Assembly: GCF_038561935.1 (NCBI RefSeq)
Contig: NZ_CP102770.1
Location: forward strand, 3,534,001 to 3,598,000
DNA from: Myxococcus stipitatus
GTDB taxonomy: Bacteria > Myxococcota > Myxococcia > Myxococcales > Myxococcaceae
Direction: 5' to 3'
Length of the DNA: 64,000 nucleotides
In this document: piece by piece, positions 47,079 through 62,575 of the stretch
Layout: every line of letters starts with the position of its first letter
How positions within the stretch are numbered: the first letter of the stretch is position 1
Program-made: the position numbers and the translations under genes
The notes under the pieces: model-generated
Seen by the model: only the letters and a program-made list of their open reading frames with translations
What the model was told of the DNA's origin: nothing
Databases searched by the model: none

Positions 47079-47354
47079 ATGCCCCCCTCCACCAAGCCGT
47101 CCGCCCCCGCGCAGGAGCTTCCCGCGCCCTCGTACCCCGCAATCGAGTCGCTCCTGGAGGACACCCCGGCCGAGGACGTCCGCGCCCTGTTCTCCCCCGT
47201 GAAGGAGGGCCTGGCGGGCCTCAAGGGCCCCAAGGTGGAGGTCGGCAAGAAGGTCCAGGTCGCCGTGGCCCACGCCGAGCAGCTCCTGGAGGTGCTGGTG
47301 GACACCCGTGAACGGCTGATCGCCGAGTCCAAGGGGGCCAAGGGTCGGAAATGA
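47079..47354 (+). CDS. Small protein at the left edge of the T3SS cluster
   Basis: A 91-residue protein with a Pro/Ala-rich N-terminus and an amphipathic helical C-terminal half ('VQVAVAHAEQLLEVLVDTRERL'). The family is not recognised. It precedes the needle-like gene, the position held by the small co-chaperone SctE in Yersinia/Pseudomonas-type loci (yscE-F-G), but no sequence evidence of homology is visible. It could equally be unrelated to secretion. The ribosome-binding site is weak. Intervening sequence to 47487 carries the FliA-like -10 element. Confidence 0.45.
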   Translation: MPPSTKPSAPAQELPAPSYPAIESLLEDTPAEDVRALFSPVKEGLAGLKGPKVEVGKKVQVAVAHAEQLLEVLVDTRERLIAESKGAKGRK

Positions 47355-47486: not shown

Positions 47487-48056
47487 ATGGCGAAGATCGA
47501 CAACATGATGGGCCCCAGCGTCCGGCTTTCGACCCACGTCACGACGGCGCGGCAGACTCCGAACACGGGCTTTGGCGCGCGTCTCCAGAACGGCCTGAAC
47601 AGCGCCGCGGGCGCCGTGGGCACGGGCGTGGGCGCGGTGGCGGGCATGATTCCCGGCGGGCAGATTGTGTCCGCGGCCGTCTCCTCGGTTCACACCCTGT
47701 CCAACTCCAGCGGCTCGGGCGCGGGCCCCTACGCGGGCGTGATGAGCACGGCGGTGGGCATGGGCGGCGGCGGCGTGGCGCCTTCCGTGGGCGGCGCGGG
47801 CGTGGGCGTCAGCGGCGTGACGGGCGGTCTGGGCGGCGGCGTGGCTGGCATGGGCGGCAACCCCGTGAGCCCCAACGGCAGCGCGGCTGACAGCGTCAAC
47901 GGCAACTTCTCGCTGAATCAGATGGCGGCGGAGAACTCGAAGCTGCTGAACCTCCAGGCGGCCATCCAGCAGGAGTCGCAGACGTTCACGGCGATTTCCA
48001 ACGTGATGAAGTCGCGGCACGATTGCATCAAGAACTCCATCAGCAACGTCCGCTGA
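47487..48056 (+). CDS. Needle (SctF)-like T3SS protein with Gly-rich N-terminal region
   Basis: A 189-residue protein with no signal peptide. Residues about 40-140 are Gly/Ala/Val/Ser-rich and probably flexible. The last ~45 residues ('ENSKLLNLQAAIQQESQTF' onward to a terminal 'KNSISNVR') form an amphipathic helix in the pattern of needle-subunit C-termini: N-x-x-LL-x-LQ, a Ser/Asn turn, then K-x-x-x-x-x-IK-x-I-x-x-x-R. Ordinary SctF proteins are about 80 residues, so this would be a much extended version. An effector or tip protein is an alternative. GGAGG precedes the start by five bases. It is followed by a TPR chaperone gene. Confidence 0.5.
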   Translation: MAKIDNMMGPSVRLSTHVTTARQTPNTGFGARLQNGLNSAAGAVGTGVGAVAGMIPGGQIVSAAVSSVHTLSNSSGSGAGPYAGVMSTAVGMGGGGVAPSVGGAGVGVSGVTGGLGGGVAGMGGNPVSPNGSAADSVNGNFSLNQMAAENSKLLNLQAAIQQESQTFTAISNVMKSRHDCIKNSISNVR

Positions 48057-48146: not shown

Positions 48147-48581
48147 ATGGCGGAGAGCGTCTCGGAGATCTCGAACAGCCTGGTTCCCCTCGGGCGCCAG
48201 CAGGCCATGGTGTTGCTGGAGGCCGGCTACCTGTGGCTGGACATGGGTCAGTTCGACAAGGCGAAGGAGATCTTCTCTGGCGCCGCGGCGCTGATGCCCA
48301 AGAGCGAGGTGCCGCAGCTGGGCCTGGGTGCGGTGGAGTTCGCGCAGGGTCGGCACGACAAGGCGCTGCAGGCGTACCGCTCCGCGCAGCGGCTGGCGCC
48401 GCAGGCCTCGCTGCCTCGGGCCCACGTGGGCGAGGCTCTCCTGTTCCTGGGCAAGGTCCCGGAAGCCCTGAAGGAGCTCAAGGCGGCCATCGACCTGGAG
48501 CCCGAGGGTGATGGGGCCCGTCTGGCGCAGGCGCTCATCCAGGCGAAGGAAGCGGGGGTCCTGCCTCCCGCGAAGAAGTAG
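48147..48581 (+). CDS. TPR chaperone of the T3SS (SctG position)
   Basis: A 144-residue all-helical protein with three tetratricopeptide-like repeats: 'AGYLWLDMGQFDKAKEIFSGA', 'LGAVEFAQGRHDKALQAYRSA' and 'VGEALLFLGKVPEALKELKAA'. T3SS loci carry TPR chaperones for the needle (SctG) and for translocators (SycD type). Gene order (F-G-H-I-J) suggests it serves the needle-like protein encoded immediately upstream. It has no signal peptide, so it is cytoplasmic. The strong ribosome-binding site AGGAAAGGAAG lies before the ATG. Confidence 0.7.
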   Translation: MAESVSEISNSLVPLGRQQAMVLLEAGYLWLDMGQFDKAKEIFSGAAALMPKSEVPQLGLGAVEFAQGRHDKALQAYRSAQRLAPQASLPRAHVGEALLFLGKVPEALKELKAAIDLEPEGDGARLAQALIQAKEAGVLPPAKK

Positions 48582-49006: not shown

Positions 49007-49843
49007 TTGCCACTGGGCGAAGACAGAAAGGCCATTCTCACCAAGTACGGCCCCTACGTTCGGTCCCTCGCGGCGACCGTGCGCAAGCAGTTCAACGCCC
49101 AGCTCGAGCTGGACGAGCTGCTGGCCTACGGACAGATAGGCCTCCTGGAAGCAGCGGAGCGGTTCGACCCGAAGGTTGGCGCCAACTTCCTGACCTTCGC
49201 CCACTACCGCATCAAGGGCGCCATCTTCGACGGCCTGAGGAAGATGGGGGTGTTGCGGGGTTCGGACGCGCGAAACGCGTTCGTGGGAGAGCGGGCGGCG
49301 GCGTATCTGGGCAATTTGTCGGACCGCGAGTCGGGTTCAAGCAACCGCGGCAGCTCATTCGACGATGATGTCAGTGACATCTCGGATGCGGTGCAGGGGT
49401 TGGCGATGGTGTTCGCCTCCAGTCTGGAGGGGGCGGACAGCTCCGGGTACACGGATGAGTCCCTTCCGGCCGATGTCCGGCTGGAGATGGAGCAGCTGAA
49501 GACGCGGGTGCGGGCGGCGATCGAGAAGCTCCCCGAGAAGGAGCGCAAGCTCCTCCAGGGGTATTACTTCCAGGGCAGGACGCTGGAAGATGCCGGGGCG
49601 GAAATCGGGCAGTCGAAGAGTTGGGCCTCGCGGCTTCATGCGCGAGCCATCGACCGGCTCAAGGAACTCTTGAACGAGGAGGAGGAACTCCCTCCCACCT
49701 CGACGGATGCAAGGAGGCTGTCACATGGCGGGTCCGATGGCGGGCGTCTCCGCGGCGCAGGTGGCTCAGCAAAAGCTGCAGGATCAGAGCGTCCAGCAGA
49801 CGAACAAGCAGGGCGTGTCGAAGTTCGACGGAGTTCTCGCTGA
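49007..49843 (+). CDS. FliA/WhiG-type sigma factor
   Basis: A 278-residue alternative sigma-70-family factor. Region 2 ('ELDELLAYGQIGLLEAAERFDP...FLTFAHYRIKGAIFDGLRKM', about residues 33-80) is very like FliA and WhiG. Region 4 ('LPEKERKLLQGYYFQGRTL' and 'SKSWASRLHARAIDRLKELL') is at about residues 170-225. The linker contains a ~45-residue Ser/Asp-rich insertion. The start is TTG 49007, the only upstream candidate that keeps the frame. The last ~40 residues are Gly/Arg-rich and overlap sctI by 119 bases in another frame. It probably directs transcription of T3SS genes. Confidence 0.85.
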   Translation: MPLGEDRKAILTKYGPYVRSLAATVRKQFNAQLELDELLAYGQIGLLEAAERFDPKVGANFLTFAHYRIKGAIFDGLRKMGVLRGSDARNAFVGERAAAYLGNLSDRESGSSNRGSSFDDDVSDISDAVQGLAMVFASSLEGADSSGYTDESLPADVRLEMEQLKTRVRAAIEKLPEKERKLLQGYYFQGRTLEDAGAEIGQSKSWASRLHARAIDRLKELLNEEEELPPTSTDARRLSHGGSDGGRLRGAGGSAKAAGSERPADEQAGRVEVRRSSR

Positions 49844-50276
49844 CAAGGCGCAGGGCGCCGGTCAGGTCGACGCGACCCAGGGTGTGAACAAGGCCCAGGC
49901 GACCCAGAAGACGGACGCCGTGCGCCAGGTGGAGACCGTCAACAAGACGGAGAAGGCCGCCCTCAACAAGGTGAACGCCGCCGCCACCCAGCCGGTGTCC
50001 GCGAAGGCCGCCGAGCCCGTTGCCGCCAAGACGGAGACGGGGAAGACGGGCAAGACCTCCGACATGATGTCGCAGGTGATTGGCGACCTGGAGAAGGGCC
50101 AGGGCAACCTGGAGAAGATCATCTCCCAGGCCTCCAGCGGCAAGCAGTTCTCCAACGCCGAGCTGCTCTCGCTCCAGGCGTCCATGTATCAGTACACGCA
50201 GCAGTTGGACCTGACGAGCAAGGTGGTGGAGAAGGCCACCACGGGTCTCAAGGACGTCGTCAAGACGCAGGTCTGA
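49725..50276 (+). CDS. sctI: T3SS inner-rod protein SctI
   Basis: A 183-residue protein. The first ~125 residues are Gln/Lys/Ala/Thr-rich and probably unstructured. The last ~40 ('LLSLQASMYQYTQQLDLTSK' and 'VVEKATTGLKDVVKTQV') match the conserved C-terminus of YscI/HrpB/PrgJ inner-rod proteins, which start needle assembly inside the basal body. Family members are usually 80-150 residues, so the N-terminus is long. ATG 49725 is fixed by AAGGAGG seven bases upstream. It begins within the sigma-factor gene. Confidence 0.82.
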   Translation: MAGPMAGVSAAQVAQQKLQDQSVQQTNKQGVSKFDGVLADKAQGAGQVDATQGVNKAQATQKTDAVRQVETVNKTEKAALNKVNAAATQPVSAKAAEPVAAKTETGKTGKTSDMMSQVIGDLEKGQGNLEKIISQASSGKQFSNAELLSLQASMYQYTQQLDLTSKVVEKATTGLKDVVKTQV

Positions 50277-50306
50277 TTCACTCCACGTCCTCGGTGGCGC
50301 TTGACG

Positions 50307-50341
50307 AAGGGCGACCTCTCCTGGTTGGAGGGGGCGCCCTT
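50307..50341 (+). terminator. Terminator between sctI and sctJ
   Basis: Arms 50307-50321 and 50327-50341 pair in 14 of 15 positions with a 5-nt loop, and CCGCGTTTT follows. It separates the needle/sigma/rod group from the basal-body genes, or attenuates read-through. Confidence 0.75.
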
Positions 50342-50378
50342 CCGCGTTTTCCGAGGCCCTAGTAAGCTCCCTCCGCCC

Positions 50379-51191
50379 ATGATTCGCCGACCGCAAGCGT
50401 TCGCCGCCCCGCTTCTCGCCCTCGTGCTCGTGACGGGCTGTCACATCGAGCTCCAGCACGAGTTGAGCGAGGCGGACGCGAACGAAATCTACGTCCTGCT
50501 CAGCAAGAACGGCATCAACGCGAAGAAGGAGAAGGAGGAGGGTGGCAACGAGGTGCGGTTCATGATCACCGTGCCCAAGACCGACGCCGCCGAAGCCGCG
50601 GAGCTGCTCAAGCTCAACTCGCTTCCCCGACCGGTGGAGAAGGGCCTGTCCCACTTCGCCAAGGGAAGCATGGTCCCCACCGCCACGGAGGAGCGCGCGA
50701 TGCTCCTGAAGGCCATGGCGGGTGAGGTCTCCAACGCGCTCAACCAGATTGACGGGGTGCTGGAGGCTCGCGCCATCGTCAGCGTGCCGGAGAACAACGA
50801 CCTGACGCAGCCGGAGAACAAGCCGCTGCCGTCCGCGTCCGTGTTCATCAAGTACCGCGTGGGCGAGGGAGGCAAGGCGCCCATCGACGAGGCCCGGGTG
50901 AAGGAGTTCGTCGCCGCCGCGGTGCCGGAGCTGAAGCCGGAGGCGGTGCGGGTGTTGATGACGGCCGCGCAGGGACCCAAGGCGGAGAAGACGGACGAGA
51001 ACCGTCAGCAGGACGTGCTGGGGCTGCGGATGACCGCGTCGAGCGCCGGCCAGTTCAAGCTGATGATGGGCGGCGTGGGCCTGCTGATGGCGCTGATGAT
51101 GGGCCTGACCGTGTGGTCGATGACGCGAGGGGGTGGTGGCTCTCCCGCGCCCAAGACGGGACGTCCCCGCGTTCGCCCCCCCGAGGCCTGA
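50379..51191 (+). CDS. sctJ: T3SS inner-ring lipoprotein SctJ
   Basis: A 270-residue protein. The lipobox 'VTGC' closes a short signal, followed by two ring-building domains of the YscJ/FliF type. The first carries 'LSEADANEIYVLLSKNGINA' in part, and 'ALNQIDGVLEARAIVSVPENN' with 'SASVFIKYR' is diagnostic for the second. A C-terminal transmembrane helix ('GGVGLLMALMMGLTVWSM', about residues 225-245) and a basic tail follow. It forms the inner-membrane ring of the basal body. The length and topology match injectisome SctJ rather than the longer flagellar FliF. Confidence 0.9.
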   Translation: MIRRPQAFAAPLLALVLVTGCHIELQHELSEADANEIYVLLSKNGINAKKEKEEGGNEVRFMITVPKTDAAEAAELLKLNSLPRPVEKGLSHFAKGSMVPTATEERAMLLKAMAGEVSNALNQIDGVLEARAIVSVPENNDLTQPENKPLPSASVFIKYRVGEGGKAPIDEARVKEFVAAAVPELKPEAVRVLMTAAQGPKAEKTDENRQQDVLGLRMTASSAGQFKLMMGGVGLLMALMMGLTVWSMTRGGGGSPAPKTGRPRVRPPEA

Positions 51192-51262: not shown

Positions 51263-53479
51263 TTGGACTCGTTCTTCACCTCGCTCAGCAAGCGCCAGAG
51301 CATGTTGCTCCTGACCGCCGTCACCTTCGGTGGCCAGGAGAGCTTGGGGGCGATGGAGCACCTTCCGGCGGAGGAGGGGGACCTGCTGCGCCATCGTGCG
51401 CAGGAGCTCCTCCAGATTCCGCGCGACAAGCGCATCCCCGCGCTGGTGCAGGAAATCAAGCGGCTGGTGAAGGACCGCCGAGGCCAGCTGTGGGGCGCGG
51501 AGCCGGAGCGTCTGGCCGCACTGCTGCAGCGTGAGCGCGGGGCGCTGATGGAGATCGTCCTCCGCGCGCTCCCCGCTGCGCTGGCGGAGGCAGTGCGAGG
51601 GCACCTGCCGCCCACCCGCGTGAAGCTCACCCGCGAGGTGCGGCCGCAGATCCTCGACATCGTCCGGTGGAAGCTGGAGGAGACGCTGGCCCGTGAGTCG
51701 GGGGCCTCGCAGTCGGCCGGCTTCAAGTTCGCCGACGTGCTCATGCTTCAGCAGCGGGAGCTGCTCACGGTGTGTGACAGGTTGGGCGCGCGGGTCCTCG
51801 GTCCGGCCCTGGCGGGCCTGCCCGACGCGGAGCGGGAGGCGCTGTTCGAGCCCTTGCCTCCGGACCTGAAGCTGCTCGCCACCAAGTCCGTGGCGGCGAA
51901 CGCGCCGCGCAAGCTGCCCGAGGAGGACGCGCGGGCGCAGCTGGAGCTGCATGACGGGTTGAAGAATCCCGCGGGCTCCATCCGGAGCGCGGGTGTGCAG
52001 CGGCTGGCGCGTGCGTGTGTGGCCCAGTCCCCTGAGTTCGCCGCGCGCATGCTGGAGAAGTACCGGGGCGAGTTTGGCGGGTTGATCGCGAAGTGGGTGC
52101 GCGAGGAGCGCATCCGCCCGACGGCGCGCGGGGACGGTGGTCGTACCGACATCGTCATGGACCTGGAGCGGCTGGCTTCGCGGGGGCTCATCGAGCGTCC
52201 CGTGCGCCTGGCGACCCCTCCGCCTCCGCGTCAGTCCGCGGTGCTTCCGCCGCCTCCGGGCGCCCGCAAGGCCGCCGCGGCCGCGCAGCAGGCCTCCAGT
52301 GGCGCTCCGGCCCGTGAGGCCCCTGCCGCCCAGCGCGAGGCCCCTGCGGCGCCTCGCGAGGCCTCGGGTGCGCCAGCTCGCGCCCCGGCCGCGGCTGCTC
52401 GCACGGGTGTCCCAGGCGCGTCTCGTGCGCCGGGAAGGGCCGGCGCCGCCAGTCGCCAGCCTCAAGCGGCTGAGCCCGCGGCGCGCCGTGACTTCATGGC
52501 GGAGCGTGCCGCGAGGAGCGCGGGCGCGATGTCCAGCCGCGAGCCCGCGCGTCCCAAGGACGGCGCCGCGGATGGATCCGCGATGCACCGCATGCCTGCC
52601 CGGCGCGATGCCACGTCGGCCTCGCCGGCTCCGGGGGCGCCACGCGGCACCTCGGCCGGTGCTCGACGCGAGCCCGGCGCGGGTGGGGCACGGAGAGAGG
52701 GCGAGGGTCCCGAGCCCCGGGCCAGCCGAGCAGGGGGCGCGGATCCTCAGGGCGCTCGCATCGGACCTCCCCCCTCGCGCCTGGGTGGGGCACGTCCTCG
52801 TCCCTCGGCACCAGCAGGGGAGGGCGAGTCCGCGACGCCTCCCGCGCGGGATGGCTCGCGGATCGGAGCCGCGCCGGAGGGCTCGCGAGTGCAGCGCTCG
52901 GCGGATGGGTCCCGCGTGGGTGCGGCGCCCGATGGTTCGCGAGTGCAGCGCTCGGCGGATGGGTCCCGCGTGGGTGCGGCGCCCGATGGTTCGCGCGTAC
53001 AGCGCTCGGCGGACGGGTCTCGCGTGGGCGCGGCGCCGGAGGGCTCGCGCGTGCAGCGCTCGGCGGATGGCTCTCGCGTGGGTGCGGCGCCGGAGGGCTC
53101 TCAAGTTCAGCGCTCCCCGGAGGGGTCTCGCGTCCAGCGCCAGCCCGAGGACGCCTCCCGCTCGTCGCGTGTCCGGCTTCGGCCGGAGCAGAACGCGGCC
53201 CAGGCGGAGCCGGAGGAGGGGTCTCGCGTGTTCCGTTCTCGCTCCTCGGTCAGCATCAGCTCCGTCCGGGTGGACCCAGCCCTGGAGGGCCAGCGCCAGC
53301 AGGAGCGGCCGCCCAGGGTGTTGGCTGGCCGCTCAACGACTTCCCCCGGGTCACATCCTCCGGCGGGAGGGCGTGAGGAGGGGACGTCCGTGCAGCGCCG
53401 CCCCCGCTCCCCGAGTGATTCGGACCGGCCCGCGTCTTCCGGTCCCGGAGGGCGTGGACCGCGGGGCGGAACGCGCTAG
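51263..53479 (+). CDS. FliG-like / SctK-position protein with tandem-repeat tail
   Basis: A 738-residue protein between sctJ and sctL, the slot of SctK. The first ~330 residues are helical with FliG-like signature phrases ('LGAMEHLPAEEGDLLRHRAQE', 'EIVLRALPAALAEAVRGHLP'). From about residue 330 it is Ala/Pro/Arg-rich and disordered, including five near-perfect 18-residue repeats (residues 530-619) of type D-G-S-R-V-G-A-A-P-D/E-G-S-R-V-Q-R-S-A. The start is TTG 51263 with GAGGTGA just upstream. A cytoplasmic docking role for SctJ and the sorting platform is inferred; the repeats have no known function. Confidence 0.65.
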   Translation: MDSFFTSLSKRQSMLLLTAVTFGGQESLGAMEHLPAEEGDLLRHRAQELLQIPRDKRIPALVQEIKRLVKDRRGQLWGAEPERLAALLQRERGALMEIVLRALPAALAEAVRGHLPPTRVKLTREVRPQILDIVRWKLEETLARESGASQSAGFKFADVLMLQQRELLTVCDRLGARVLGPALAGLPDAEREALFEPLPPDLKLLATKSVAANAPRKLPEEDARAQLELHDGLKNPAGSIRSAGVQRLARACVAQSPEFAARMLEKYRGEFGGLIAKWVREERIRPTARGDGGRTDIVMDLERLASRGLIERPVRLATPPPPRQSAVLPPPPGARKAAAAAQQASSGAPAREAPAAQREAPAAPREASGAPARAPAAAARTGVPGASRAPGRAGAASRQPQAAEPAARRDFMAERAARSAGAMSSREPARPKDGAADGSAMHRMPARRDATSASPAPGAPRGTSAGARREPGAGGARREGEGPEPRASRAGGADPQGARIGPPPSRLGGARPRPSAPAGEGESATPPARDGSRIGAAPEGSRVQRSADGSRVGAAPDGSRVQRSADGSRVGAAPDGSRVQRSADGSRVGAAPEGSRVQRSADGSRVGAAPEGSQVQRSPEGSRVQRQPEDASRSSRVRLRPEQNAAQAEPEEGSRVFRSRSSVSISSVRVDPALEGQRQQERPPRVLAGRSTTSPGSHPPAGGREEGTSVQRRPRSPSDSDRPASSGPGGRGPRGGTR
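52850..53119 (+). repeat. Five in-frame 54-bp tandem repeats
   Basis: Units start at 52850, 52904, 52958, 53012 and 53066; each encodes 18 residues (type DGSRVGAAPDGSRVQRSA), with an internal half-repeat 'xGSRV'. The unit length is a multiple of three, so copy number can change without breaking the gene. A degenerate sixth unit follows. Confidence 0.9.
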
Positions 53480-53503: not shown

Positions 53504-54178
53504 ATGGCGATCGGCAAGGTGATCAAGGGAGATGGGACGGCCGACTCGTCCCTCGTGACGGAGCGGCCGGTGCTGCGGCCCCCGCGCGCGGGGGTGATGA
53601 ACGCGGAGGTCTTCGAGGCGCGGCAAGGAGCCCAGGCCATCCTCGAGGACGCCCAGCGCGAGAAGGAGCGCATCCTCGCGGAGGCGCAGCGCGAGCGGGA
53701 GGAGCTGCTGGCGAAGACGCGCGAGCAGGGGCGGCAGGAGGGCCTGGCCCAGGCCACGGAGATCATCCTCCGCGCGAAGCTCCAGGCTGGGGAGATCCTC
53801 GGCTCGTACGAGAAGGACGTCATCGCGCTGGGGCTGCGCGTCGGCGAGAAGATCATCGGCCGGAGCCTGGAGAAGGACCCGGACCTGATGCTGGAGCTGT
53901 GCGCGGCGGCCATCGACAACCTGCGCAGCGCCCGCTCCATGATTCTGCGGGTCCACCCCAAGACGGCGGCCGTGCTCCGGGCCAAGAAGCCCGTGCTGAT
54001 GGAGCTCATCGGCCGCGCGGTGGATGTCGCCATCAAGGAGGACCCGGAGGTTGCTCCGGTGGGCTGCATCGTCCAGACGGAGTTCGGCACCGTGGACGCG
54101 CAGCTCCCGACGCAGCTCGAGATGCTCCAGAGCGTGTTGTTGCCGGACCAGAACGGCCCGAAGGAAGGCCCGGCCTGA
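53504..54178 (+). CDS. sctL: T3SS ATPase regulator SctL (FliH-like)
   Basis: A 224-residue cytoplasmic protein. A Glu/Arg-rich coiled coil (about residues 45-105: 'AQREKERILAEAQREREELL') precedes the FliH/YscL C-domain ('LGLRVGEKIIGRSLEKDPDLM', 'LRVHPKTAAVL', 'DPEVAPVGCIVQTEFGTVDA'). SctL dimers bind SctN and the SctQ sorting platform. The length is typical. ATG 53504 lies 24 bases after the preceding stop and 25 bases separate it from sctN. Confidence 0.9.
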   Translation: MAIGKVIKGDGTADSSLVTERPVLRPPRAGVMNAEVFEARQGAQAILEDAQREKERILAEAQREREELLAKTREQGRQEGLAQATEIILRAKLQAGEILGSYEKDVIALGLRVGEKIIGRSLEKDPDLMLELCAAAIDNLRSARSMILRVHPKTAAVLRAKKPVLMELIGRAVDVAIKEDPEVAPVGCIVQTEFGTVDAQLPTQLEMLQSVLLPDQNGPKEGPA

Positions 54179-54203: not shown

Positions 54204-55517
54204 ATGGCCATCGACCTCTCGCATTACTTCGACCTCATCAAGGACGCGCAGACCGTCCGCGTCCGGGGCCGCGTCACCGAGCTGACGGGCCTCATCATCA
54301 AGGCGAGCGTCCCCAACGTCCGCGTGGGCGAGCTGGTGCTCATCAAGAGCCGCTCCCGTGGCTCCGTGAAGGCGGAGGTCGTGGGTTTTCAGGGGGATGA
54401 GGTGATGCTCATGCCCCTGGGCGAGCTGTACGGCATCGGCCCGGACAGTGAAGTCATCCCCACCGGCAAGCCCCTGAGCATCAAGTGTGGCGAGGCGCTC
54501 CTGGGGCGCGTGCTCAACGGCATCGGCGAGCCGATGGACGGCAGCGCGCTGCCCGAAGAGGGCCTCATCGACTGGTCCGTGGACCGCGACTGTCCGGACC
54601 CGTTCACCCGTCAGCGCATCGAGCGGCCGCTGCCCCTGGGCGTGCGCTGCATCGACGGACTGCTCACCGTGGGCGAGGGCCAGCGCGTCGGACTCTTCGC
54701 CGGCTCCGGCGTCGGCAAGTCCACGCTGATGGGACAGATAGCGCGCAACACCCAGGCCGACCTGTGCGTCGTGGCGCTCATCGGCGAGCGTGGTCGCGAA
54801 GTGCGAGAGTTCATCGAAGACGCGATGGGCGAGGAGGGCATGAAGCGCTCCGTGCTGGTCTGCGCGACCTCCGACCAGCCCAGCCTCGTGCGTCTGCGCG
54901 CCGCGTACGTCGCCACGGCCATCGCCGAGTACTTCCGCGAGCGCGGCGGCAACGTCCTCTTCATGCTCGACACCGTCACGCGTCTGGCGCGTGCCCAGCG
55001 TGAGATTGGCCTCGCGGTGGGCGAGCCCCCGGCCCGTCAAGGCTACCCGCCGAGTGTGTTCTCCATGCTGCCGCGCATCCTGGAGCGCACGGGCAACTCG
55101 GCGAAGGGCAAGTGCACCGCCATCTACACGTGCCTCGTGGCCGGCGGTGACATGGAAGAGCCCATCGCCGACGAAGTCCGCGGTATTCTCGACGGTCACT
55201 TCATCCTCAACCGCGCGCTGGGTGAGCGGAACCAGTGGCCCGCGATGGACGTGCTGGCCAGCCTCAGCCGTGTGATGAGCGGCATCGTCAGCAAGGAGCA
55301 CAAGAAGGCGGCGGGGAAGCTGCGCGAGACGCTCTCCACCTACGAGAAGCAGCGCGACCTCATCCTGCTGGGCGCCTACCAGTACGGGACGGACCCCCGC
55401 ACCGACTACGCCATCGACAAGTACGACGCCATCATCGACTTCCTCAAGCAGGACACCCACTCCAACTCCGGCTTCGAGGAGACGGTGGAGCAGCTGGTGG
55501 CGTTGTTCGAGGAGTGA
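54204..55517 (+). CDS. sctN: T3SS ATPase SctN
   Basis: A 437-residue AAA/F1-type hexameric ATPase that unfolds and feeds substrates to the export gate. Walker A is 'GLFAGSGVGKST' (about residues 163-174), Walker B 'VLFMLDTVTR', and the 'GERGREVREFIED' catalytic-Glu region is present, as are the family motifs 'PPARQGYPPSVFSMLPRILER' (in part) and 'DEVRGILDGHFILNR'. It resembles FliI and SctN about equally by eye; context decides SctN. ATG 54204 is preceded by AGGAAG. The reading frame continues upstream to 54024 but that part overlaps sctL. Confidence 0.94.
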   Translation: MAIDLSHYFDLIKDAQTVRVRGRVTELTGLIIKASVPNVRVGELVLIKSRSRGSVKAEVVGFQGDEVMLMPLGELYGIGPDSEVIPTGKPLSIKCGEALLGRVLNGIGEPMDGSALPEEGLIDWSVDRDCPDPFTRQRIERPLPLGVRCIDGLLTVGEGQRVGLFAGSGVGKSTLMGQIARNTQADLCVVALIGERGREVREFIEDAMGEEGMKRSVLVCATSDQPSLVRLRAAYVATAIAEYFRERGGNVLFMLDTVTRLARAQREIGLAVGEPPARQGYPPSVFSMLPRILERTGNSAKGKCTAIYTCLVAGGDMEEPIADEVRGILDGHFILNRALGERNQWPAMDVLASLSRVMSGIVSKEHKKAAGKLRETLSTYEKQRDLILLGAYQYGTDPRTDYAIDKYDAIIDFLKQDTHSNSGFEETVEQLVALFEE

Positions 55518-55591: not shown

Positions 55592-56080
55592 ATGCCCCCG
55601 TACCGGTTGCAGACCCTGCTGGACATGCGTGCCCGGGCCAAGGAGGAGGCCGAACAGGCCTTCTCCGACGCCATCAAGGCCCTGGAGCGGGAGAAGGCGG
55701 AGCTCCAGCGGCTGATGGACGAGCTGGAGCGGCGCAAGCGCGAGCGCAAGGAGAAGGTGGCCGCCTACCTCAAGGAGGTCATGGCCAAGGGCGCTGGCAT
55801 CAACGGCATGAACATGATGGGCCGCTTCGAGGAGCGCCTGAAGGACGAAGAGGCGCAGGTGGCGCTGGAGGTGGAGCGCCAGCGTGAAGCGGTGAAGGTG
55901 GCCGAGCGGGTCGTGGAGCAGCGGCGGCGGGAGATGGCCGAAGCGGCCAAGGAGCTCAAGGCCATCGAGAAGCACAAGGAGACCTGGCAGAAGCAGGTGA
56001 AGTACGAGCGCCAGCAGCGCGAGGAGCTCAACCAGGAGGAGATTGGCAACGCCTTGTTCCTGGCTCGCCAGCGCAAGTAA
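55592..56080 (+). CDS. sctO: T3SS stalk protein SctO (FliJ-like)
   Basis: A 162-residue coiled-coil protein, almost entirely helical and rich in Glu/Lys/Arg. 'YRLQTLLDMRARAKEEAEQAF' at the N-terminus and 'KHKETWQKQVKYERQQREELNQEE' (read in parts) near the C-terminus are typical of FliJ/YscO, the central stalk that links the ATPase to the export gate. A Gly/Met-rich break at about residues 68-78 forms the hairpin turn. It follows sctN as in other T3SS operons. Confidence 0.85.
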   Translation: MPPYRLQTLLDMRARAKEEAEQAFSDAIKALEREKAELQRLMDELERRKRERKEKVAAYLKEVMAKGAGINGMNMMGRFEERLKDEEAQVALEVERQREAVKVAERVVEQRRREMAEAAKELKAIEKHKETWQKQVKYERQQREELNQEEIGNALFLARQRK

Positions 56081-56113: not shown

Positions 56114-57007
56114 ATGAGCCGAGTCGACGACGACCGTGAAGCAGCGCGCCTGGCCGAGCGCATAATGCAGGAGAAGAAGATCGCCGAGGGCCAGGCGAAG
56201 AAGCGCCAGGAGGGTGCGTCCGCCTTCCAGAAGCTGATGCAGCCCCAGGCCCAGCCTCAGGCGACAGCTCCGGCTCCCGCCCCCCAGACGCCGGGTGCCT
56301 TCGCCCGTCAGGTGCTGGCCAAGGCCACCCAGCAGGGGAAGGCCTTCGGTGAGCAGGCCCAGCAGCCTCGCGCGGATGGCAACCCCGGGGGCCTGTCCCA
56401 GATGCAGCGCCGGGCGGACACCGGTGCCGCGGAGGGCCGCTCCGGCTCGCGCGCCGCGGACTCCAAGGAGGAGAAGCGCACCTCCGAGACGCGCGACAAG
56501 GACCTGAGCAAGGCGGAGACCGCGCTGGGACAGGTCAACGCGGAGAAGGGCGCGGTCATCCGGGCCGAGAACGACGCGAGCGGTGGCAAGGGCAGTGGCG
56601 GCGGTGGCAAGGACAAGAAGGAGGGCGGTGGTGGCGCGGAGATGGCGCCGGGCTTCCGCTTCAATCCCGCGCTGATGGCGCCGGTGCCGGTGGCCAAGCC
56701 CAAGGACACGGCGGGCTCCGAGCGGCTGCGCGCCATGGCCAGCGAGATTGCCCAGAAGATTGTCGAGCGCGTGCGCGTGGGCACCAACGCCGCGGGCCTG
56801 GCCGAGTTCCAGATCGACCTGCGCGGTGACGTGCTCAGCGGTCTGTCCATCAAGGTGAGCGCGAGGAACGGGAAGATTTCGGCCACCTTCAGCGGCACCA
56901 ACCGCGACGTGCTGAAGATGCTCGAGGAGCAGAGTGAAGGGCTGCGCACCGCGCTGGGAGGCCGTGGCCTGAAGCTGGAGACGGTCCGCTTCGAGGCCAA
57001 GACATGA
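56114..57007 (+). CDS. sctP: Needle-length regulator SctP (FliK-like)
   Basis: A 297-residue protein. Residues about 1-190 are Gln/Pro/Ala/Lys-rich and probably extended, as in ruler proteins. The C-terminal ~90 residues ('FQIDLRGDVLSGLSIKVSARNGKI' in parts, then 'LEEQSEGLRTALGGRGL') match the FliK/YscP T3S4 domain, which contacts SctU to switch substrate specificity. The stop overlaps the sctQ start by four bases (ATGA). The short ruler region suggests a short needle if it measures length. Confidence 0.82.
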   Translation: MSRVDDDREAARLAERIMQEKKIAEGQAKKRQEGASAFQKLMQPQAQPQATAPAPAPQTPGAFARQVLAKATQQGKAFGEQAQQPRADGNPGGLSQMQRRADTGAAEGRSGSRAADSKEEKRTSETRDKDLSKAETALGQVNAEKGAVIRAENDASGGKGSGGGGKDKKEGGGGAEMAPGFRFNPALMAPVPVAKPKDTAGSERLRAMASEIAQKIVERVRVGTNAAGLAEFQIDLRGDVLSGLSIKVSARNGKISATFSGTNRDVLKMLEEQSEGLRTALGGRGLKLETVRFEAKT

Positions 57008-58437
57008 GCGTGGAGCCGGACGACGAAGGTCCCGGCATGCACGAGCGGACGATGCTGGTGGACCTCCGCCAGCTCAAGCCGCTGCGGGCCCCTCCTGTCG
57101 AGCAGCCCCCCGAAGAGCCCGTCGCGGCCCCGGAACCCGCCGCGGAGGACCCGGACACCCTCGACCAGGTGGCGCGAAGCTGGGCGCCGTTCACCTTCAA
57201 GGGCCTGGAGAAGGTGTCCAAGGCCCAGGGGCAGTTGGCGCATCGGATGCGCTGGCTGACGCCCTCGGAGGGGACGCTCGCCCAGATATCCGCGCGCCTG
57301 AAGGGGCTCTTCGACGCCGAGGTGCGGCTGTCGCTGGAGTCGGTGCAGGTGCGGCCCATGGAGGAGCTGCGCCGCTTCCTCGGAGACCCGACGTTCCTCG
57401 CGGTGCTGGCGCCCGGCGCGCTCCAGGGGCGCGCGGTGCTGGAAGTGGAGCTGGCCCTGGCCCACACGGCCGTGGACCTGCTCCTGGGCGGCGCGGGCGA
57501 GACGGTGGGCCTGCGGCCGCTGACGGACATCGAAGAAGGGGTGATGGGGTACGTCGTCCTGGAGTCGCTGAGGGTGCTGGTGCCCGCGCTTCAGGCGGGG
57601 GTGCCTCGGCCCAGGCTGGACGGCGTCGCGCGGGGCGTGGACGAGGTGTCCGCGCGCCTGGGCGACGAGGCCCCCATGCTGACGGTGCACCTGAACGCCA
57701 ACCTGGGGCCGCATGTCGGCATGGTCCGGCTGGTGGTGCCCTCGGCGGTGCTGGCGGCGGCGGAGCCGGCGGTGGCGAGCGTCCAGCGCAACGCGCTCAA
57801 GAAGGCGGACATGGCGGCGCACGCGGGCCGGCTGTCCGCGGTGCGAAGCTGGCTGCGGGCGGAGATTGGCACCGCGGAGCTGACCACCCACGACCTGGCG
57901 AGCCTGCGCGTCAAGGACGTCGTCCTGGTGGACGTGCTGTCGGCGCGGCCGGACCGGGGCGAGCCGGGCACGGCGCAGCTTCGCGTGGGCACCGGACGCG
58001 CCGGGCGCGCCGAGGCCGAGGTATTCGTCGACGAGGACGGGCACTACAAGGCCCGCATCGTCGACATCATCCCCGGGGAGTCGGGGAACCCGCGCTCGGC
58101 CACCGAGGAGGGTGGGGGACGGGATGAGGAAGAGGACTTCACCAATCCGGAGCTGGACGTTCCTCCGGAGCTCGAAGGGGCGCCCTTGGACGACGTGAAC
58201 AAGCCGGATGGAAGCGACCTGCTGGGCGACTTGCCGCTGCAGATCGCCGTGGAGCTCGCGCGCATCCCCGTCACCGCCGAGCAGGTGGTGGGCATGCGGG
58301 CCGGCCAGGTCATCGAGCTGGGCCGGGGGCCCGGCGAGCCGGTGGAGCTCTCCATCAACGGCAAGGTGGTGGCCCGGGGTGAGCTGGTGGAGATGGAAGG
58401 CCAGCTGGGCGTCCGCGTCACGAACCTGGCGGGCTGA
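57004..58437 (+). CDS. sctQ: T3SS sorting-platform protein SctQ (FliM/FliN-like)
   Basis: A 477-residue cytoplasmic protein. A Pro/Glu-rich N-terminus and a FliM-middle-like region (about residues 100-280, 'LELALAHTAVDLLLGGAGE') are followed by a first SpoA domain (about 290-350). The C-terminal second SpoA domain ('PLQIAVELARIPVTAEQVVGM', 'VELSINGKVVARGELV') ends at the C-terminus. Organisation is SctQ-like, one long protein rather than separate FliM and FliN. It forms the cytosolic platform with SctK and SctL. Confidence 0.88.
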   Translation: MSVEPDDEGPGMHERTMLVDLRQLKPLRAPPVEQPPEEPVAAPEPAAEDPDTLDQVARSWAPFTFKGLEKVSKAQGQLAHRMRWLTPSEGTLAQISARLKGLFDAEVRLSLESVQVRPMEELRRFLGDPTFLAVLAPGALQGRAVLEVELALAHTAVDLLLGGAGETVGLRPLTDIEEGVMGYVVLESLRVLVPALQAGVPRPRLDGVARGVDEVSARLGDEAPMLTVHLNANLGPHVGMVRLVVPSAVLAAAEPAVASVQRNALKKADMAAHAGRLSAVRSWLRAEIGTAELTTHDLASLRVKDVVLVDVLSARPDRGEPGTAQLRVGTGRAGRAEAEVFVDEDGHYKARIVDIIPGESGNPRSATEEGGGRDEEEDFTNPELDVPPELEGAPLDDVNKPDGSDLLGDLPLQIAVELARIPVTAEQVVGMRAGQVIELGRGPGEPVELSINGKVVARGELVEMEGQLGVRVTNLAG

Positions 58438-58523: not shown

Positions 58524-59213
58524 ATGGCAGTCCTTCGTAACCCCCTCATGCGCCTGACCCTGGGCGCCTCGCTGGTGTTCTCACCGCTCACCGTGCTGGC
58601 CCAGGCTCCCGCCGCGCCCGCGCCGGGTGCCGCGCCCGCGCCTTCGCCTACCCCCGTCGTGGCGCCCCCAAGCGACGCGACGCCACCCCCCGCGTCCGCC
58701 CAGGCCCCCACGGGTACCCAGGCCGCCACGGGGGGCCAGGTCGCGGGCGCACCCGCGACGAAGCCCCCGAGCGAGGAGCCCCAGTGGGAGGACCCCCTGG
58801 CGGGGACTCCGGCGGCGACGGAAGAGCCGGAGAGCATGGGGTGGATGCTGCTGCGGACGGTGCTGGTGCTGGGGGCGGTGGTGGCCTCCATCTACCTGAC
58901 GCTGAACGTGGGGTTGCGCCGGCTGATGGGGCTTCAGGGCGCCTCGCCGGGGCGGCAGACGGTGGTGTCGGTGGTGGAGCGGCTGCCTCTGGACCCGAAG
59001 CGGCAGCTGTTCGTGGTGAAGGCCGCGGACGAGTACCTGCTGGTGGGTGGCGGCGAGTCGGGCCTGCAGTTGCTGTCGAAGCTGGACACGGAGGCGGTGG
59101 AGCGCATTCGCGCGCAGCGCCCTCAGACGAACGTGGTACCCCTCAGCCCTTTTCTCCAGAAGCTTCTTTCCCGCCGCTCCGGGGGCTCGTCGTCCCAGCC
59201 CCCCGGCGCCTGA
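58524..59213 (+). CDS. FliO-like export-apparatus assembly protein
   Basis: A 229-residue membrane protein. A signal-like N-terminus ('LTLGASLVFSPLTVLAQ') and a Pro/Ala-rich periplasmic linker precede one transmembrane helix ('MLLRTVLVLGAVVASIYLTL', about residues 110-130). The cytoplasmic domain ('VVSVVERLPLDPKRQLFVVKA' and 'EYLLVGGGESGLQLLSKLD') has the FliO pattern. FliO helps assemble the FliP ring in flagella and is normally missing from injectisomes. It lies immediately upstream of sctR, exactly as fliO precedes fliP. Recognition rests on short motifs plus position. Confidence 0.78.
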   Translation: MAVLRNPLMRLTLGASLVFSPLTVLAQAPAAPAPGAAPAPSPTPVVAPPSDATPPPASAQAPTGTQAATGGQVAGAPATKPPSEEPQWEDPLAGTPAATEEPESMGWMLLRTVLVLGAVVASIYLTLNVGLRRLMGLQGASPGRQTVVSVVERLPLDPKRQLFVVKAADEYLLVGGGESGLQLLSKLDTEAVERIRAQRPQTNVVPLSPFLQKLLSRRSGGSSSQPPGA

Positions 59214-59226
59214 TGGCACCTGTCCC

Positions 59227-60051
59227 GTGAACGCCCAAGCTCCCGCCCGCTCCCGCCTTCCACGCGTCCCGCCCTGGCTGTTCGCGGCCGTCGCGTCGTT
59301 GCACCCCTTCATCGCGCTCGCGGACAAGAAGCGCTCCGCGATGGTCCCGGAGGCCGTGGCCAATGAGGCGGTGAGCAGCGACTCGTTCACCTCGCGGCCG
59401 CTCATCCTCATCCTCGCGCTGGCGGCCATGGGCCTGGTGCCCTTCGCGCTGATGATGGTGACGAGCTTCGTGAAGATTTCGGTGGTGCTCTCCATCGTCC
59501 GCTCGGCGCTGGGCACCCAGCAGATTCCGCCCACCCAGGTGATTACCGGGCTGGCCGTCATCCTCACCGTCTACATCATGGCGCCCGTGGGCACGGCCAT
59601 GTACCGGGCGGCGGAGATCGACGTCTGGGCGAAGGGCCCGGGGGTCTTCTCCTCCTCCACGGTGGGCTCGCTGCTCGAGGGCGCCAACAAGTCCAAGGAG
59701 CCGCTGCGCGCGTGGCTGATGAAGAAGGTGACGGTGAAGGACCGCTCGCTCTTCTACAACCTGGCCAAGAAGATGCGGACGGGCGAGGACCGCGAGTCGG
59801 TGCAGAGCCAGGACTTCATGGTCATCGTCCCGGCCTTCGTCGTCTCCGAATTGAAGGAGGCCTTCCAGATTGGCTTCCTCCTCTTCGTCCCGTTCATCGT
59901 CATCGACATGGTGGTGGCCAACATCCTCCTGGCGCTGGGCATGCACATGCTGTCGCCCACCACCATCTCCATGCCCTTCAAGCTCCTCCTCTTCGTCCTG
60001 GTGGATGGCTGGTACCTCATCGCCAAGGGCCTGGTCGTCGGCTACCTGTAG
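59227..60051 (+). CDS. sctR: Export-gate protein SctR (FliP-like)
   Basis: A 274-residue inner-membrane protein of the SctR/FliP family, forming the entrance of the export channel. An N-terminal signal-peptide-like segment ('PPWLFAAVASLHPFIALA') precedes four hydrophobic segments; 'MMVTSFVKISVVLSIVRSALG' and 'SELKEAFQIGFLLFVPF' are diagnostic. A cleaved signal is usual in flagellar FliP but not in injectisome SctR. The start is GTG 59227, since the upstream in-frame part overlaps the FliO-like gene; the ribosome-binding site is weak, suggesting translational coupling. Confidence 0.92.
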   Translation: MNAQAPARSRLPRVPPWLFAAVASLHPFIALADKKRSAMVPEAVANEAVSSDSFTSRPLILILALAAMGLVPFALMMVTSFVKISVVLSIVRSALGTQQIPPTQVITGLAVILTVYIMAPVGTAMYRAAEIDVWAKGPGVFSSSTVGSLLEGANKSKEPLRAWLMKKVTVKDRSLFYNLAKKMRTGEDRESVQSQDFMVIVPAFVVSELKEAFQIGFLLFVPFIVIDMVVANILLALGMHMLSPTTISMPFKLLLFVLVDGWYLIAKGLVVGYL

Positions 60052-60064
60052 GAAGAAGGCACCC

Positions 60065-60328
60065 ATGAACCAGCTCACGTTCATCACCCAGGAGGCGCTG
60101 TTCCTGGTGCTCGTGGTGTCGGCCCCGCCGGTGCTGATGAGCCTCCTGGTGGGCTTCATCATCTCGCTGTTCCAGGCCACCACGCAGATTCAGGAGCAGA
60201 CGCTCACCTTCGCGCCCAAGGTCATCATCGTCTTCGGCGTGCTGGCCATGACGGGGCCGTGGATTGGAAGCCAGCTGATGCGCTTCACCTTCCACGTCTT
60301 CGACCGGTTCCCCGCGCTCATCAAATGA
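60065..60328 (+). CDS. sctS: Export-gate protein SctS (FliQ-like)
   Basis: An 87-residue protein with two transmembrane helices ('ALFLVLVVSAPPVLMSLLVGFI' in part and 'IIVFGVLAMTGPWIGSQLM'). The motif 'SLFQATTQIQEQTLTFAPK' is the hallmark of SctS/FliQ. Four copies surround the SctR-SctT complex. It starts 13 bases after sctR and overlaps sctT by four bases (ATGA). Confidence 0.93.
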   Translation: MNQLTFITQEALFLVLVVSAPPVLMSLLVGFIISLFQATTQIQEQTLTFAPKVIIVFGVLAMTGPWIGSQLMRFTFHVFDRFPALIK

Positions 60329-61143
60329 ACGCCGCGGACCTTGTGTCCGAGCTGGCTGCTCGGACGAACTTCTCCGCCGCCATCTTCACGGTCGCCCTGC
60401 TCATGTGCCGGGTGATGCCGGTGCTCATCTTCAGCCCGTTCCTGGGCGGTGAGGTGGTGCCCACGGAGATGAAGATGGGCATCGGGCTGACGCTGGCCAT
60501 GGTGCTCTATCCCTCCATCGCCGGCTCCGTCACCACCATCCCCCTGAGCGCGCTGCCCTACATCGCGCTGATGGCCAAGGAGGTCTTCATCGGCTTCTCC
60601 ATGGCGTTCATCGTCAACGGGGTGTTCGAGGCGGCCCGCGTCGCCGGCACCCTCGCGGACACCATGGCGGGCAGCAACAACGCCCAGCTCTACGTGCCGC
60701 AGCTCGGCCAGCAGGTGTCGCTGTTCTCCAACCTCAAGGTGCAGATGGCCGTGGTGCTGTTCCTCACCCTGGACGGCCACCACCTGGTCATCCAGGCGCT
60801 GGCGGACAGCCTCACCACGGTGCCCCTGGATGGCTTCCCGCGCTTCAGCCAGGGCGCGTGGACCTACTTCGACGTCCTGATTCGCGTCTTCGCGGACATG
60901 CTCCGCATCAGCATGGCGCTGGCGGCTCCCGCCGTGCTGGCCACCTTCCTGACGGACGTGGCGCTGGGCGCCATCAACCGCGTGGCGCCGCAAATCCAGG
61001 TGTTCTTCATCTCCATGTCCATCAAGCCGCTCGTCGGCGTGCTCATCACCTTCCTGGTGCTGGGCGCGCTCCTGGGCCGCATGCAGGACGAACTGGCCAT
61101 CATGCTGCGGACGCTCAGGGACGCGCTGCGGCTGCTGGCCTGA
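60325..61143 (+). CDS. sctT: Export-gate protein SctT (FliR-like)
   Basis: A 272-residue polytopic inner-membrane protein with about six hydrophobic segments. 'FTVALLMCRVMPVLIFSPFLG', 'EVFIGFSMAFIVNGVFEAARVAG' (in part) and 'DVALGAINRVAPQIQVFFISM' are characteristic of SctT/FliR, which closes the export gate with SctR and SctS. The ATG overlaps the sctS stop. The next gene, sctU, begins 24 bases later. Confidence 0.92.
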   Translation: MNAADLVSELAARTNFSAAIFTVALLMCRVMPVLIFSPFLGGEVVPTEMKMGIGLTLAMVLYPSIAGSVTTIPLSALPYIALMAKEVFIGFSMAFIVNGVFEAARVAGTLADTMAGSNNAQLYVPQLGQQVSLFSNLKVQMAVVLFLTLDGHHLVIQALADSLTTVPLDGFPRFSQGAWTYFDVLIRVFADMLRISMALAAPAVLATFLTDVALGAINRVAPQIQVFFISMSIKPLVGVLITFLVLGALLGRMQDELAIMLRTLRDALRLLA

Positions 61144-61167: not shown

Positions 61168-62247
61168 ATGTCGGACGAGAGTGGAGACAAAACAGAAGAA
61201 CCGTCGCAGAAGAAGCTCGACGACTCTCGCAAGAAGGGTCAGGTCTGGAAGAGCAAGGACCTAAGCGGCGTGGCCGTGCTGGTGGTGGGGCTGGGGGCCC
61301 TGAAGTCCTCGTGGGACACCGTGGAAGAGGAGATGGTCAAGCTCTTCCACTTCAGCTTCGACCACATGGCGCGGGGCGATGACCTGTCGGACGCCACGGG
61401 CCAGCTGCTCTACCTGGGGCTGCGGGCGCTGCTGCTCGTGACGTTGCCGGTGGTCGCGGGCAGCGCGGTGGTGGGTGGGTTGATGGAGTTCCTGCAGGTG
61501 GGCTCCCTCTTCACCATGGACCCGCTCATGCCCAAGCTGGACAAGCTCAACCCGCTGGCCGGGTTGAAGAACATGTTCAGCAAGAAGTCGCTGGTGGAGA
61601 TGCTCAAGAACCTCATCAAGATCTCCGTCACCGCCTACGTCGTCTACGGCGTGGTTCGCGACGCGATGCCCTTGGTGGTGGAGACCGTCCGCCAGGACAC
61701 ACGCACCATCATGGTCATCATGGGGGAGCTGGTGACCCGCGTGGCGACCCGCGTCGCGCTGCTCTTCGTCCTCTTCGGCATCTTCGACGTCTGGTGGCAG
61801 CGCAAGTCCTTCATGAAGGACATGATGATGACGAAGGACGAGGTGAAGAAGGAGTACAAGGAGAGCGAAGGCGACCCGCACCACAAGGCCAAGCGCAAGG
61901 AGCTCCACCACGAAATCATGGAGGGCGCGCAGATGGAGTCGGTGCGGGACGCGGACGTCATCGTCACCAACCCGGACCACGTGGCCGTCGCGCTCAAGTA
62001 CGACCGGGAGAAGGACGGCGCGCCCCGGGTGCTGGCGAAGGGAATCGACCACAAGGCCGAGCGCATCAAGGGCATCGCCCGCGAGCAGGACGTCCCCACG
62101 CTGCGCAACGTGCCCCTGGCCCACGCGCTCCTCCGGGTGGAGGTGGGACACGAGGTGCCCGAGGAGCTCTATGACGCGGTGGCCGAGGTCCTCAACTTCG
62201 TCTACGAGCTGAAGAACGGCGGCCAGGCGCCCGCGGCGCGCGCGTGA
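61168..62247 (+). CDS. sctU: Export switch protein SctU (FlhB-like)
   Basis: A 359-residue protein. A four-helix membrane domain (about residues 30-215) is followed by a cytoplasmic domain with the autocleavage motif as 'NPDH' (residues 268-271) instead of the usual NPTH. The Asn-Pro bond that splits and the following 'VAVALKYDREKDGAPRV' are intact. SctU switches the system from rod/needle to later substrates. The C-terminal sequence from the motif to 'AEVLNFVYEL' is nearly repeated in the next gene. The start has no strong ribosome-binding site but a conserved N-terminus 'GDKTEEPSQKKLDDSRKKGQ'. Confidence 0.92.
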   Translation: MSDESGDKTEEPSQKKLDDSRKKGQVWKSKDLSGVAVLVVGLGALKSSWDTVEEEMVKLFHFSFDHMARGDDLSDATGQLLYLGLRALLLVTLPVVAGSAVVGGLMEFLQVGSLFTMDPLMPKLDKLNPLAGLKNMFSKKSLVEMLKNLIKISVTAYVVYGVVRDAMPLVVETVRQDTRTIMVIMGELVTRVATRVALLFVLFGIFDVWWQRKSFMKDMMMTKDEVKKEYKESEGDPHHKAKRKELHHEIMEGAQMESVRDADVIVTNPDHVAVALKYDREKDGAPRVLAKGIDHKAERIKGIAREQDVPTLRNVPLAHALLRVEVGHEVPEELYDAVAEVLNFVYELKNGGQAPAARA

Positions 62248-62293: not shown

Positions 62294-62575
62294 ATGAGTG
62301 ACGACGCCGAAATCGCCATCGCGCTGAAGTACGACAAGGAGAAGGACAGCGCCCCGCGCGTGGTGGCCAAGGGACTGCGGCTCAAGGCGGAGAAGATTCG
62401 CGCCATCGCCAAGGAGCACAACATCCCCATCATGCGCAACGTGCCCCTGGCCAACGCGCTGTACCGGGTGGAGGTGGGGCAGGAAGTGCCCGAGGAGCTC
62501 TACGACGCGGTGGCCGAGGTCCTCAACTTCATCTACGAGCTCCAGCGCGAGCAGGCGGCCGCCGGCGGCCGGTAG
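62294..62575 (+). CDS. Free-standing FlhB C-terminal-domain paralog (FlhX-like)
   Basis: A 93-residue cytoplasmic protein that aligns with the SctU C-terminal part just after the cleavage site: 'AIALKYDKEKDSAPRVVAKG', 'AIAKEHNIPIMRNVPLANAL', 'EELYDAVAEVLNFIYEL'. The NPxH motif itself is missing. Its 3' DNA is almost identical to the end of sctU, so it arose by duplication or has been homogenised. Free FlhB_CC domains (FlhX) occur in some flagellar systems, where they may substitute for the cleaved peptide. Start ATG 62294. Confidence 0.85.
   Translation: MSDDAEIAIALKYDKEKDSAPRVVAKGLRLKAEKIRAIAKEHNIPIMRNVPLANALYRVEVGQEVPEELYDAVAEVLNFIYELQREQAAAGGR

Follow-up and report, generated by a model that had tools for sequence, protein, structure and literature searches.

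Why does a gene of the FliO family, a flagellar assembly factor, stand in a non-flagellar secretion locus, and what does its product do there? The question arises from the window, by which we mean the whole 64,000-nucleotide stretch of Myxococcus stipitatus DNA that was analysed (contig NZ_CP102770.1, positions 3,534,001 to 3,598,000). An initial annotation, made from the sequence alone, had pointed to a fliO gene in this stretch, placed directly before sctR. Statements about published work refer to the available text of the sources cited.

A FliO homologue upstream of sctR

The open reading frame runs from an ATG start to a TGA stop, and this start is backed by several relatives whose N-termini share the conserved 'MAV...'. 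Residues 131–212 of the product matched the Pfam FliO family with an E-value of 2.7e-11 and a score of 43.8 bits, twice the curated cut-off (22 bits), and no family besides FliO was found in the Pfam scan at E ≤ 0.01. The sole match in an NCBIfam scan was FliO_TIGR (TIGR03500; E 7e-13, 48.4 bits). The latter score lies under the equivalog cut-off of 55.25 bits, so the protein is a member of the FliO family and, by that rule, not a flagellar FliO. A six-frame search of the 10.17-Mb genome with the FliO profile gave only two matches, this ORF and C1:7850543–7850764, both directly upstream of a sctR. Since there are only two matches genome-wide, the FliO identity of the ORF is not a matter of chance. 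In the window, 13 nt separate the fliO stop from the GTG start of sctR at 59227. The 229-residue protein is a genuine FliO homologue, and both the family and the position named in the initial annotation were upheld.

The other genomic match belongs to a second non-flagellar secretion system of shorter extent (stretch L003, C1:7840001–7859900), composed of SctV, U, T, S and R, FliO, SctQ, SctJ and a SctI-like protein. Its FliO is divergent and scores 27.4 bits. SctN was sought in this 19.9-kb stretch and was not found there. The FliG/SctK position of the second system is occupied by a 223-residue protein that matched no Pfam family.

The FliO homologue of the window starts with a hydrophobic stretch (19-residue hydropathy window at residues 8–26), continues with a linker rich in Pro and Ala, and then has a strongly hydrophobic segment (residues 104–132). 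The conserved block that had been noticed behind the transmembrane helix is also evident in alignment A1, in which E152, L156, R160, L172 and G175 hardly vary. The 34 rows of A1 are 27 of the 30 long-type FliO sequences and all 7 flagellar ones, with the 5 short rows left out. The C-terminal LSPFLQKLLSRR motif is kept in most long-type rows of A1 and also in alignment A4. In the AlphaFold2 model, which was built with the 34-row alignment, strands span residues 148–155, 161–167, 170–177 and 180–187, and helices span residues 189–198 and 209–218. The pLDDT per ten-residue block was 91–92 over residues 151–190 and 84–92 over residues 151–200, and it was 46–68 in the blocks of the first 100 residues. 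The modelled region of residues 105–198 corresponds to the FliO core as published, a single transmembrane helix with a small cytoplasmic antiparallel sheet (PMC12403147), and this agrees with FliO in the structural comparison proposed for residues ∼110–200. A PDB search with the FliO alignment and profile found no relative, and a Foldseek search with the model gave a best E-value of 0.45, its top rows being taken up by 40–50-residue fragments of large unrelated enzymes. The dN/dS ratio of the core, calculated from dN and dS in five comparisons, was ∼0.07–0.31, and the N-terminal 100 residues had a dN above that of the core in all five. The core is under purifying selection.

FliO has been reported in both non-flagellar type III secretion systems (T3SSs) of Myxococcus xanthus (PNAS 2025, PMC12403147), so its occurrence here is not new. 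Like the two M. xanthus proteins (WP_020477618.1 and WP_216608840.1; PMC12403147), the protein described here is a homologue of FliO that belongs to a non-flagellar T3SS in the Myxococcota. The record that we compared instead of these accessions, from M. xanthus AM003 (L083), contains the same fliO–sctR pair with 83% identity in the FliO core; apart from the species, nothing essential differs. That FliO is usually absent from injectisomes, as the initial annotation stated, was the standing view until 2025, but FliO has now been published for exactly this group. With flagellar FliO of Salmonella and other bacteria, the protein has in common the transmembrane helix and small sheet, a gene directly before fliP, and the profile match. 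It differs from flagellar FliO in its non-flagellar context, its score below the TIGR03500 equivalog cut-off and its long Pro/Ala-rich N-terminal region. Our results confirm the 2025 report in another species by gene order, structure and selection: FliO is not purely flagellar.

The secretion locus and its distribution

The genes of the locus are arranged in the order SctI-like, SctJ, FliG-like, SctL, SctN, YscO-like, FliK-like, SctQ, FliO, SctR/S/T/U and a second FlhB C-terminal domain (Table 1). Past the end of the window (stretch L004), they are joined by SctV and by an FHA/YscD-like gene on the opposite strand. The core set SctJ, L, N, Q, R, S, T, U and V is present in conserved order, which places the locus among the 'long' T3SS/T3SS* loci. 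The non-flagellar character ascribed to the cluster at the outset agrees with this content: the window has the SctI-like, SctJ, SctQ, SctN, YscO-type stalk and SctR/S/T/U genes, and SctV follows shortly after its end. A Flg_bb_rod search of the genome gave no match, and judged by this search the genome is not counted as flagellum-encoding; the flagellar families covered genome-wide were this one, FliO and FliG_C. The T3SS* of M. xanthus was reportedly first described by Thiery et al. in 2022. By gene content, the locus appears to correspond to this predation system (mxan_2434–2464), or 'Myxo long' non-flagellar T3SS (Abby & Rocha 2012), with which it shares SctJ, L, N, Q, R, S, T, U and V, the SctI-like gene and, next to sctV in the opposite orientation, the FHA/YscD-like gene. 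Unlike the T3SS* and 'Myxo long' system as published, for which neither FliG nor a needle homologue is listed in the available text, the locus in the window contains a FliG homologue and a probable relative of needle subunits.

Table 1. Positions in the window of the genes of the secretion locus and of the parts of the FliO homologue.
Feature	Position	Strand	Basis
Needle-family (SctF-like) C-terminal domain gene	47487..48056	+	Member of needle-like family, alignment A2
TPR protein adjoining needle-like gene (possible chaperone)	48147..48581	+	Pfam TPR families
sctI-like inner rod gene	49707..50276	+	Pfam T3SS_basalb_I E 6.3e-6, 27.0 bits, below cut-off 32.4
sctJ (start uncertain)	50301..51191	+	Pfam YscJ_FliF E 2.6e-20
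FliG homologue (FliG_M + FliG_C), long low-complexity tail, sctK position	51263..53479	+	Profiles, model
sctL (FliH family)	53504..54178	+	Pfam FliH E 2.2e-14
sctN ATPase	54204..55517	+	NCBIfam TIGR02546 653.7 bits, above cut-off
YscO-type stalk gene	55592..56080	+	Pfam YscO-like E 4e-49
FliK/SctP-like gene, C-terminal Flg_hook-like domain	56114..57007	+	Pfam Flg_hook 29.2 bits, just below cut-off 29.8
sctQ, FliM-like + FliN-like C-terminal domain	57004..58437	+	Pfam FliM 52.3 bits, FliMN_C; NCBIfam SctQ above cut-off
fliO-family gene	58524..59213	+	229 aa; Pfam PF04347, NCBIfam TIGR03500
FliO transmembrane helix, residues 105–134	58836..58925	+	AlphaFold helix 105–134; hydropathy peak
FliO beta-sheet domain and next helix, residues 148–198	58965..59117	+	Model; conserved block in A1
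FliO C-terminal LSPFLQKLLSRR motif, residues 207–218	59142..59177	+	A1, A4; model helix 209–218
sctR (FliP family)	59227..60051	+	GTG start; Pfam FliP E 5.4e-68
sctS (FliQ family)	60065..60328	+	Pfam Bac_export_3 E 3.4e-28
sctT (FliR family)	60325..61143	+	Pfam Bac_export_1 E 3.5e-55
sctU (FlhB family)	61168..62247	+	Pfam Bac_export_2 E 4.4e-116; NCBIfam SctU above cut-off
Stand-alone FlhB C-terminal-domain gene	62294..62575	+	Pfam Bac_export_2 positions 260–335, E 1.2e-29

The stand-alone gene for an FlhB/SctU cytoplasmic domain right after sctU recurs in the long loci of relatives. Three TPR proteins flank the locus (48147–48581, 63113–63577 and L004:2381–2860) and are possible chaperones of exported subunits; the 60 matches shown from a PDB search with the first of them were all generic TPR proteins. 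A Pfam scan of the window ORFs at 47079–47354 and 46282–46881 found no family.

FliO is present in 55 of the 59 genomes of the family. Across the phylum, it was detected in 130 of 156 genomes, and flagellar rod proteins were detected in 35 of 156. All rod-positive genomes but one (34/35; the exception is G087) also contain FliO, so 96 of the 156 have FliO without a rod match, and among these 96 the gene neighborhood was seen for panel members only. Flg_bb_rod matched in 9 of 30 genomes of the family and gave no match in the other 21, that of the window included. The panel comprised 42 FliO-carrying loci selected for FliO (30 long, 5 short and 7 flagellar), made up of the window locus, L003 and 40 wider loci that were picked from the FliO matches to span genera. 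In every one of the 42, the gene for FliP/SctR comes after that for FliO in the same orientation, at a distance of −85 to 47 nt. The 30 long-type FliO records include Myxococcus, Pyxidicoccus, Corallococcus, Archangium, Citreicoccus and Hyalangium, and seven flagellated relatives carry a flagellar FliO plus a separate T3SS FliO.

When compared with hhalign, the long-type FliO and the flagellar FliO of the same family aligned with a probability of 95.8 (E 7.9e-9); the probability was 2.9 for long versus short FliO and 30.2 for short versus flagellar FliO. In the SctR/FliP tree, the 7 flagellar rows are split from the 35 non-flagellar ones at 100/100 by a very long branch, which carries a long-branch warning and may be an artefact. 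The 5 short rows lie among the long ones, in a fork of 33 rows (100/100), but their place is unsure because their branch corresponds to 4.54 changes per column. The reading of the window's cluster as a degraded flagellum was rejected on the basis of the missing rod genes and of this split between SctR and flagellar FliP. Over 30 loci, the distances of FliO are correlated with those of SctR (r 0.83). Some of the FliO matches (G081, G082, G090, G092, G095 and G161, five of them in family f3) contain one internal TGA, which possibly reflects a gene overlap or a frameshift.

Possible role of FliO in SctR ring assembly

Salmonella FliO is described as a scaffold for the FliP ring that is not part of the finished gate (PMC5542437; PMC5542435), and it becomes dispensable once FliP is overexpressed (PMC5542437). 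Because the homologue in the window has the same gene position, fold and partner as Salmonella FliO, the best account is that it helps to build the SctR ring of the T3SS*. We assign a probability of roughly 0.75 to the reading that the ORF encodes a FliO-family protein of a 'long' non-flagellar T3SS locus, most likely acting as an SctR assembly scaffold. By analogy with Salmonella FliO, we infer a scaffold step in which FliO would be made just before SctR, would bind SctR subunits in the inner membrane and would help them to form a ring, on which SctS, SctT and SctU would then assemble. Canonical injectisomes assemble SctR rings without FliO, so such a scaffold would not be strictly needed. 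No published experiment on the FliO protein of the window was found in the literature consulted. The T3SS* of M. xanthus is required for prey lysis and acts with the Kil pilus (PMC12075869; PMC10433427), and by analogy, from gene content, homology and this literature, the system in the window may have a role in prey lysis as well.

The FliO homologue could instead have become a lasting part of the secretion apparatus. One way would be a periplasmic stretch that ties the export gate to the Kil/Tad pilus or else to peptidoglycan. Such a part would suit a T3SS* that is described as having no known outer-membrane component and as acting with the Kil pilus (PMC12075869, PMC10433427), and LysM or AMIN domains are found on FliO of some Myxococcota (PMC12403147). 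However, the N-terminal stretch of the present protein is low in complexity and diverges faster than the core (dN, 5/5 comparisons), and Pfam finds no domain besides FliO, which makes a permanent part rather unlikely. It is considerably harder to see FliO as a functionless remnant of a flagellar ancestor. Non-flagellar systems are described as lacking FliO (PMC5542437), and the protein would thus be dispensable, but it precedes sctR in 42 of 42 loci (which were selected for FliO), it is retained in 55 of the 59 family genomes, and the dN of its core is well under dS. That the ORF belongs to some other small membrane family and resembles FliO by chance, as the unconserved N-terminal half and the lack of any FliO structure found for comparison might allow, is scarcely credible given that FliO is the sole match in Pfam and FliO_TIGR the sole match in NCBIfam, with no non-FliO family in either, and that the FliO profile is specific genome-wide.

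FliG-like and needle-like components

The scaffold reading accounts for a protein already reported in this type of system; the FliG homologue and the needle-like family, not FliO, are the new part. The product of 51263–53479 stands between sctJ and sctL, and in flagellar gene order fliG lies between fliF and fliH. Pfam FliG_C scored 27.1 bits against it without the low-complexity tail and 23.0 bits with the tail (cut-off 23.3). In alignment A3, which contains 23 of the 28 FliG-like rows, FliG_C was matched by all 23 aligned relatives at E ≤ 0.1 (best 4.2e-11), MgtE_N by 8 and FliG_M by 3. A PDB profile search with the family placed FliG on top (1lkv with E 1.2e-5, 4fhr and 3ajc). The predicted model of the protein has a pLDDT of 81, and the first 13 rows of a Foldseek search with it were FliG or C-ring/motor complexes containing FliG, with a best E-value of 0.012 and no match at E ≤ 0.001. 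Rows 1–13 of VIA-align were likewise FliG or C-ring complexes, four of them titled merely as C-ring or motor complexes. They covered model residues 73–315, with residues 1–72 outside, and had Z-scores of 5.7–10.4 (3.4 in row 14); according to the tool's note, values below ∼13 are not decisive for helical models. The rmsd was 10–18 Å in the long alignments, which would fit a hinged protein, and 2.1 Å over 71 residues with 4fq0_C, a chain of a FliG–FliM complex.

In 30 whole genomes, the FliG_C profile gave 28 listed matches, 9 of them strong ones in the nine rod-positive genomes. Another 13 are the FliG-like gene of the examined long T3SS loci, with 10 above the cut-off, and 6 are neither at these loci nor among the nine strong ones. 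The same search of the window's genome gave no match at E ≤ 0.001. The identification of the product of 51263–53479 as a FliG homologue with middle and C-terminal domains is strongly supported. Placed at the SctK position, it may join the SctJ ring to the FliM/FliN-like SctQ.

The needle-like family consists of small proteins or C-terminal domains. Counted with a family profile that was derived from the very loci examined, it occurs in 27 of 29 long loci and in all 5 short ones, and in none of the 7 flagellar loci. There are up to six copies per locus, for example in relatives such as L055, and the genome of the window has copies at 47487–48056, L004:1455–1670 and L003:14049–14537. No needle-like ORF was found within the examined stretch of the two remaining long loci (L048 and L064); the genome of L048 has a needle-profile match ∼3 kb beyond sctJ, outside that stretch. 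The Pfam profile T3SS_needle_F (PF09392; cut-off 29.4) scored 14.3 bits (E 0.047) against 47487–48056 and 14.7 bits against the L004 member. In alignment A2, which contains 34 of 36 distinct needle-like tails (64 ORFs), it was matched by 16 of the 34 members at E ≤ 0.1 (best 2.3e-8), and NCBIfam III_needle was matched by 4 of the 34 at the same threshold. Ten members were also scanned singly in Pfam: one was above the cut-off (L040, 34.5 bits), four gave weak matches (E 0.003–0.065), and five had no needle match, the M. xanthus member (L083) included. Other weak Pfam matches (HrpF, HSBP1, WXG100 and others) indicate that short helical sequences attract noise.

Thirteen PDB chains matched the family profile at E ≤ 0.034. 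Eleven of these are named PrgI (one fused to SipD), MxiH or 'needle protein', with E-values from 1.5e-4 to 0.034, and PrgI is a needle subunit. The best match was to a chain of 43 residues, 7y6c_F (E 5.4e-7), which its entry names a needle-protein co-chaperone and not a needle, and one further match is a fusion of lethal factor and a T3SS protein. A reversed-sequence control found no PDB match, which is a weaker test because the control comprised 7 rows versus 34 in the real query. The curated needle profile, run against the 30 whole genomes at E ≤ 0.1, matched 20 times in 12 of them, once above the cut-off. Of these matches, 12 map to a long T3SS locus or fall within ∼3.5 kb of sctJ, in stretches of some tens of kilobases within genomes of 2–12 Mb; they come from 11 of the 12 genomes. 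At E ≤ 0.1, this profile gave no match in the genome of the window. A Synechococcus control genome, in which we know of no T3SS, also gave a needle-profile match. Judging from the sequences, the needle-like family is likely homologous to T3SS needle subunits, and SctF-family subunits could build a periplasmic or prey-directed filament. The ORFs at 47079–47354, 47487–48056 and 48147–48581 were also considered as a trio resembling yscE, yscF and yscG, a reading that we do not adopt, as only 47487–48056 has support from a needle-system profile.

Abby & Rocha (2012) describe the myxobacterial systems as having no FliG and no SctF, and add that SctF should have been detected if present. In the available text of a review, the T3SS* has no needle homologue (PMC10433427), and the system is termed needleless in later papers (PMC12075869, PMC10433427). 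In the titles and abstract openings of the open-licence literature, we found no report of FliG or a needle protein in a Myxococcus T3SS. We lean towards the view that the T3SS* is neither needleless nor devoid of flagellar rotor parts, and that with FliO, a FliG homologue and SctF-family subunits, the latter encoded more than once in many species, it would represent a living intermediate between flagellum and injectisome. If this is true, the way in which the T3SS* moves proteins towards prey becomes testable on named genes, and the needle-like genes would be candidates for a filament in the predation machine, of which the literature calls the delivery step unknown (PMC10433427). Myxobacterial systems form the deepest non-flagellar T3SS branch and anchor an account of injectisome origin that assumes that they lack FliG and SctF (Abby & Rocha 2012). 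If both are present, the ancestor would have retained both a needle-type filament and a switch-like platform made up of FliG, FliM/N and FliO, and the position once taken by FliG may now be that of SctK.

M. xanthus AM003 (L083) has two needle-like ORFs downstream of sctR, both encoded on the opposite strand; the contig end truncates one of them. One genome in which no rod protein was matched also has a clear FliG_C match of 71 bits outside the long T3SS locus (G010:C22:149693–150010).
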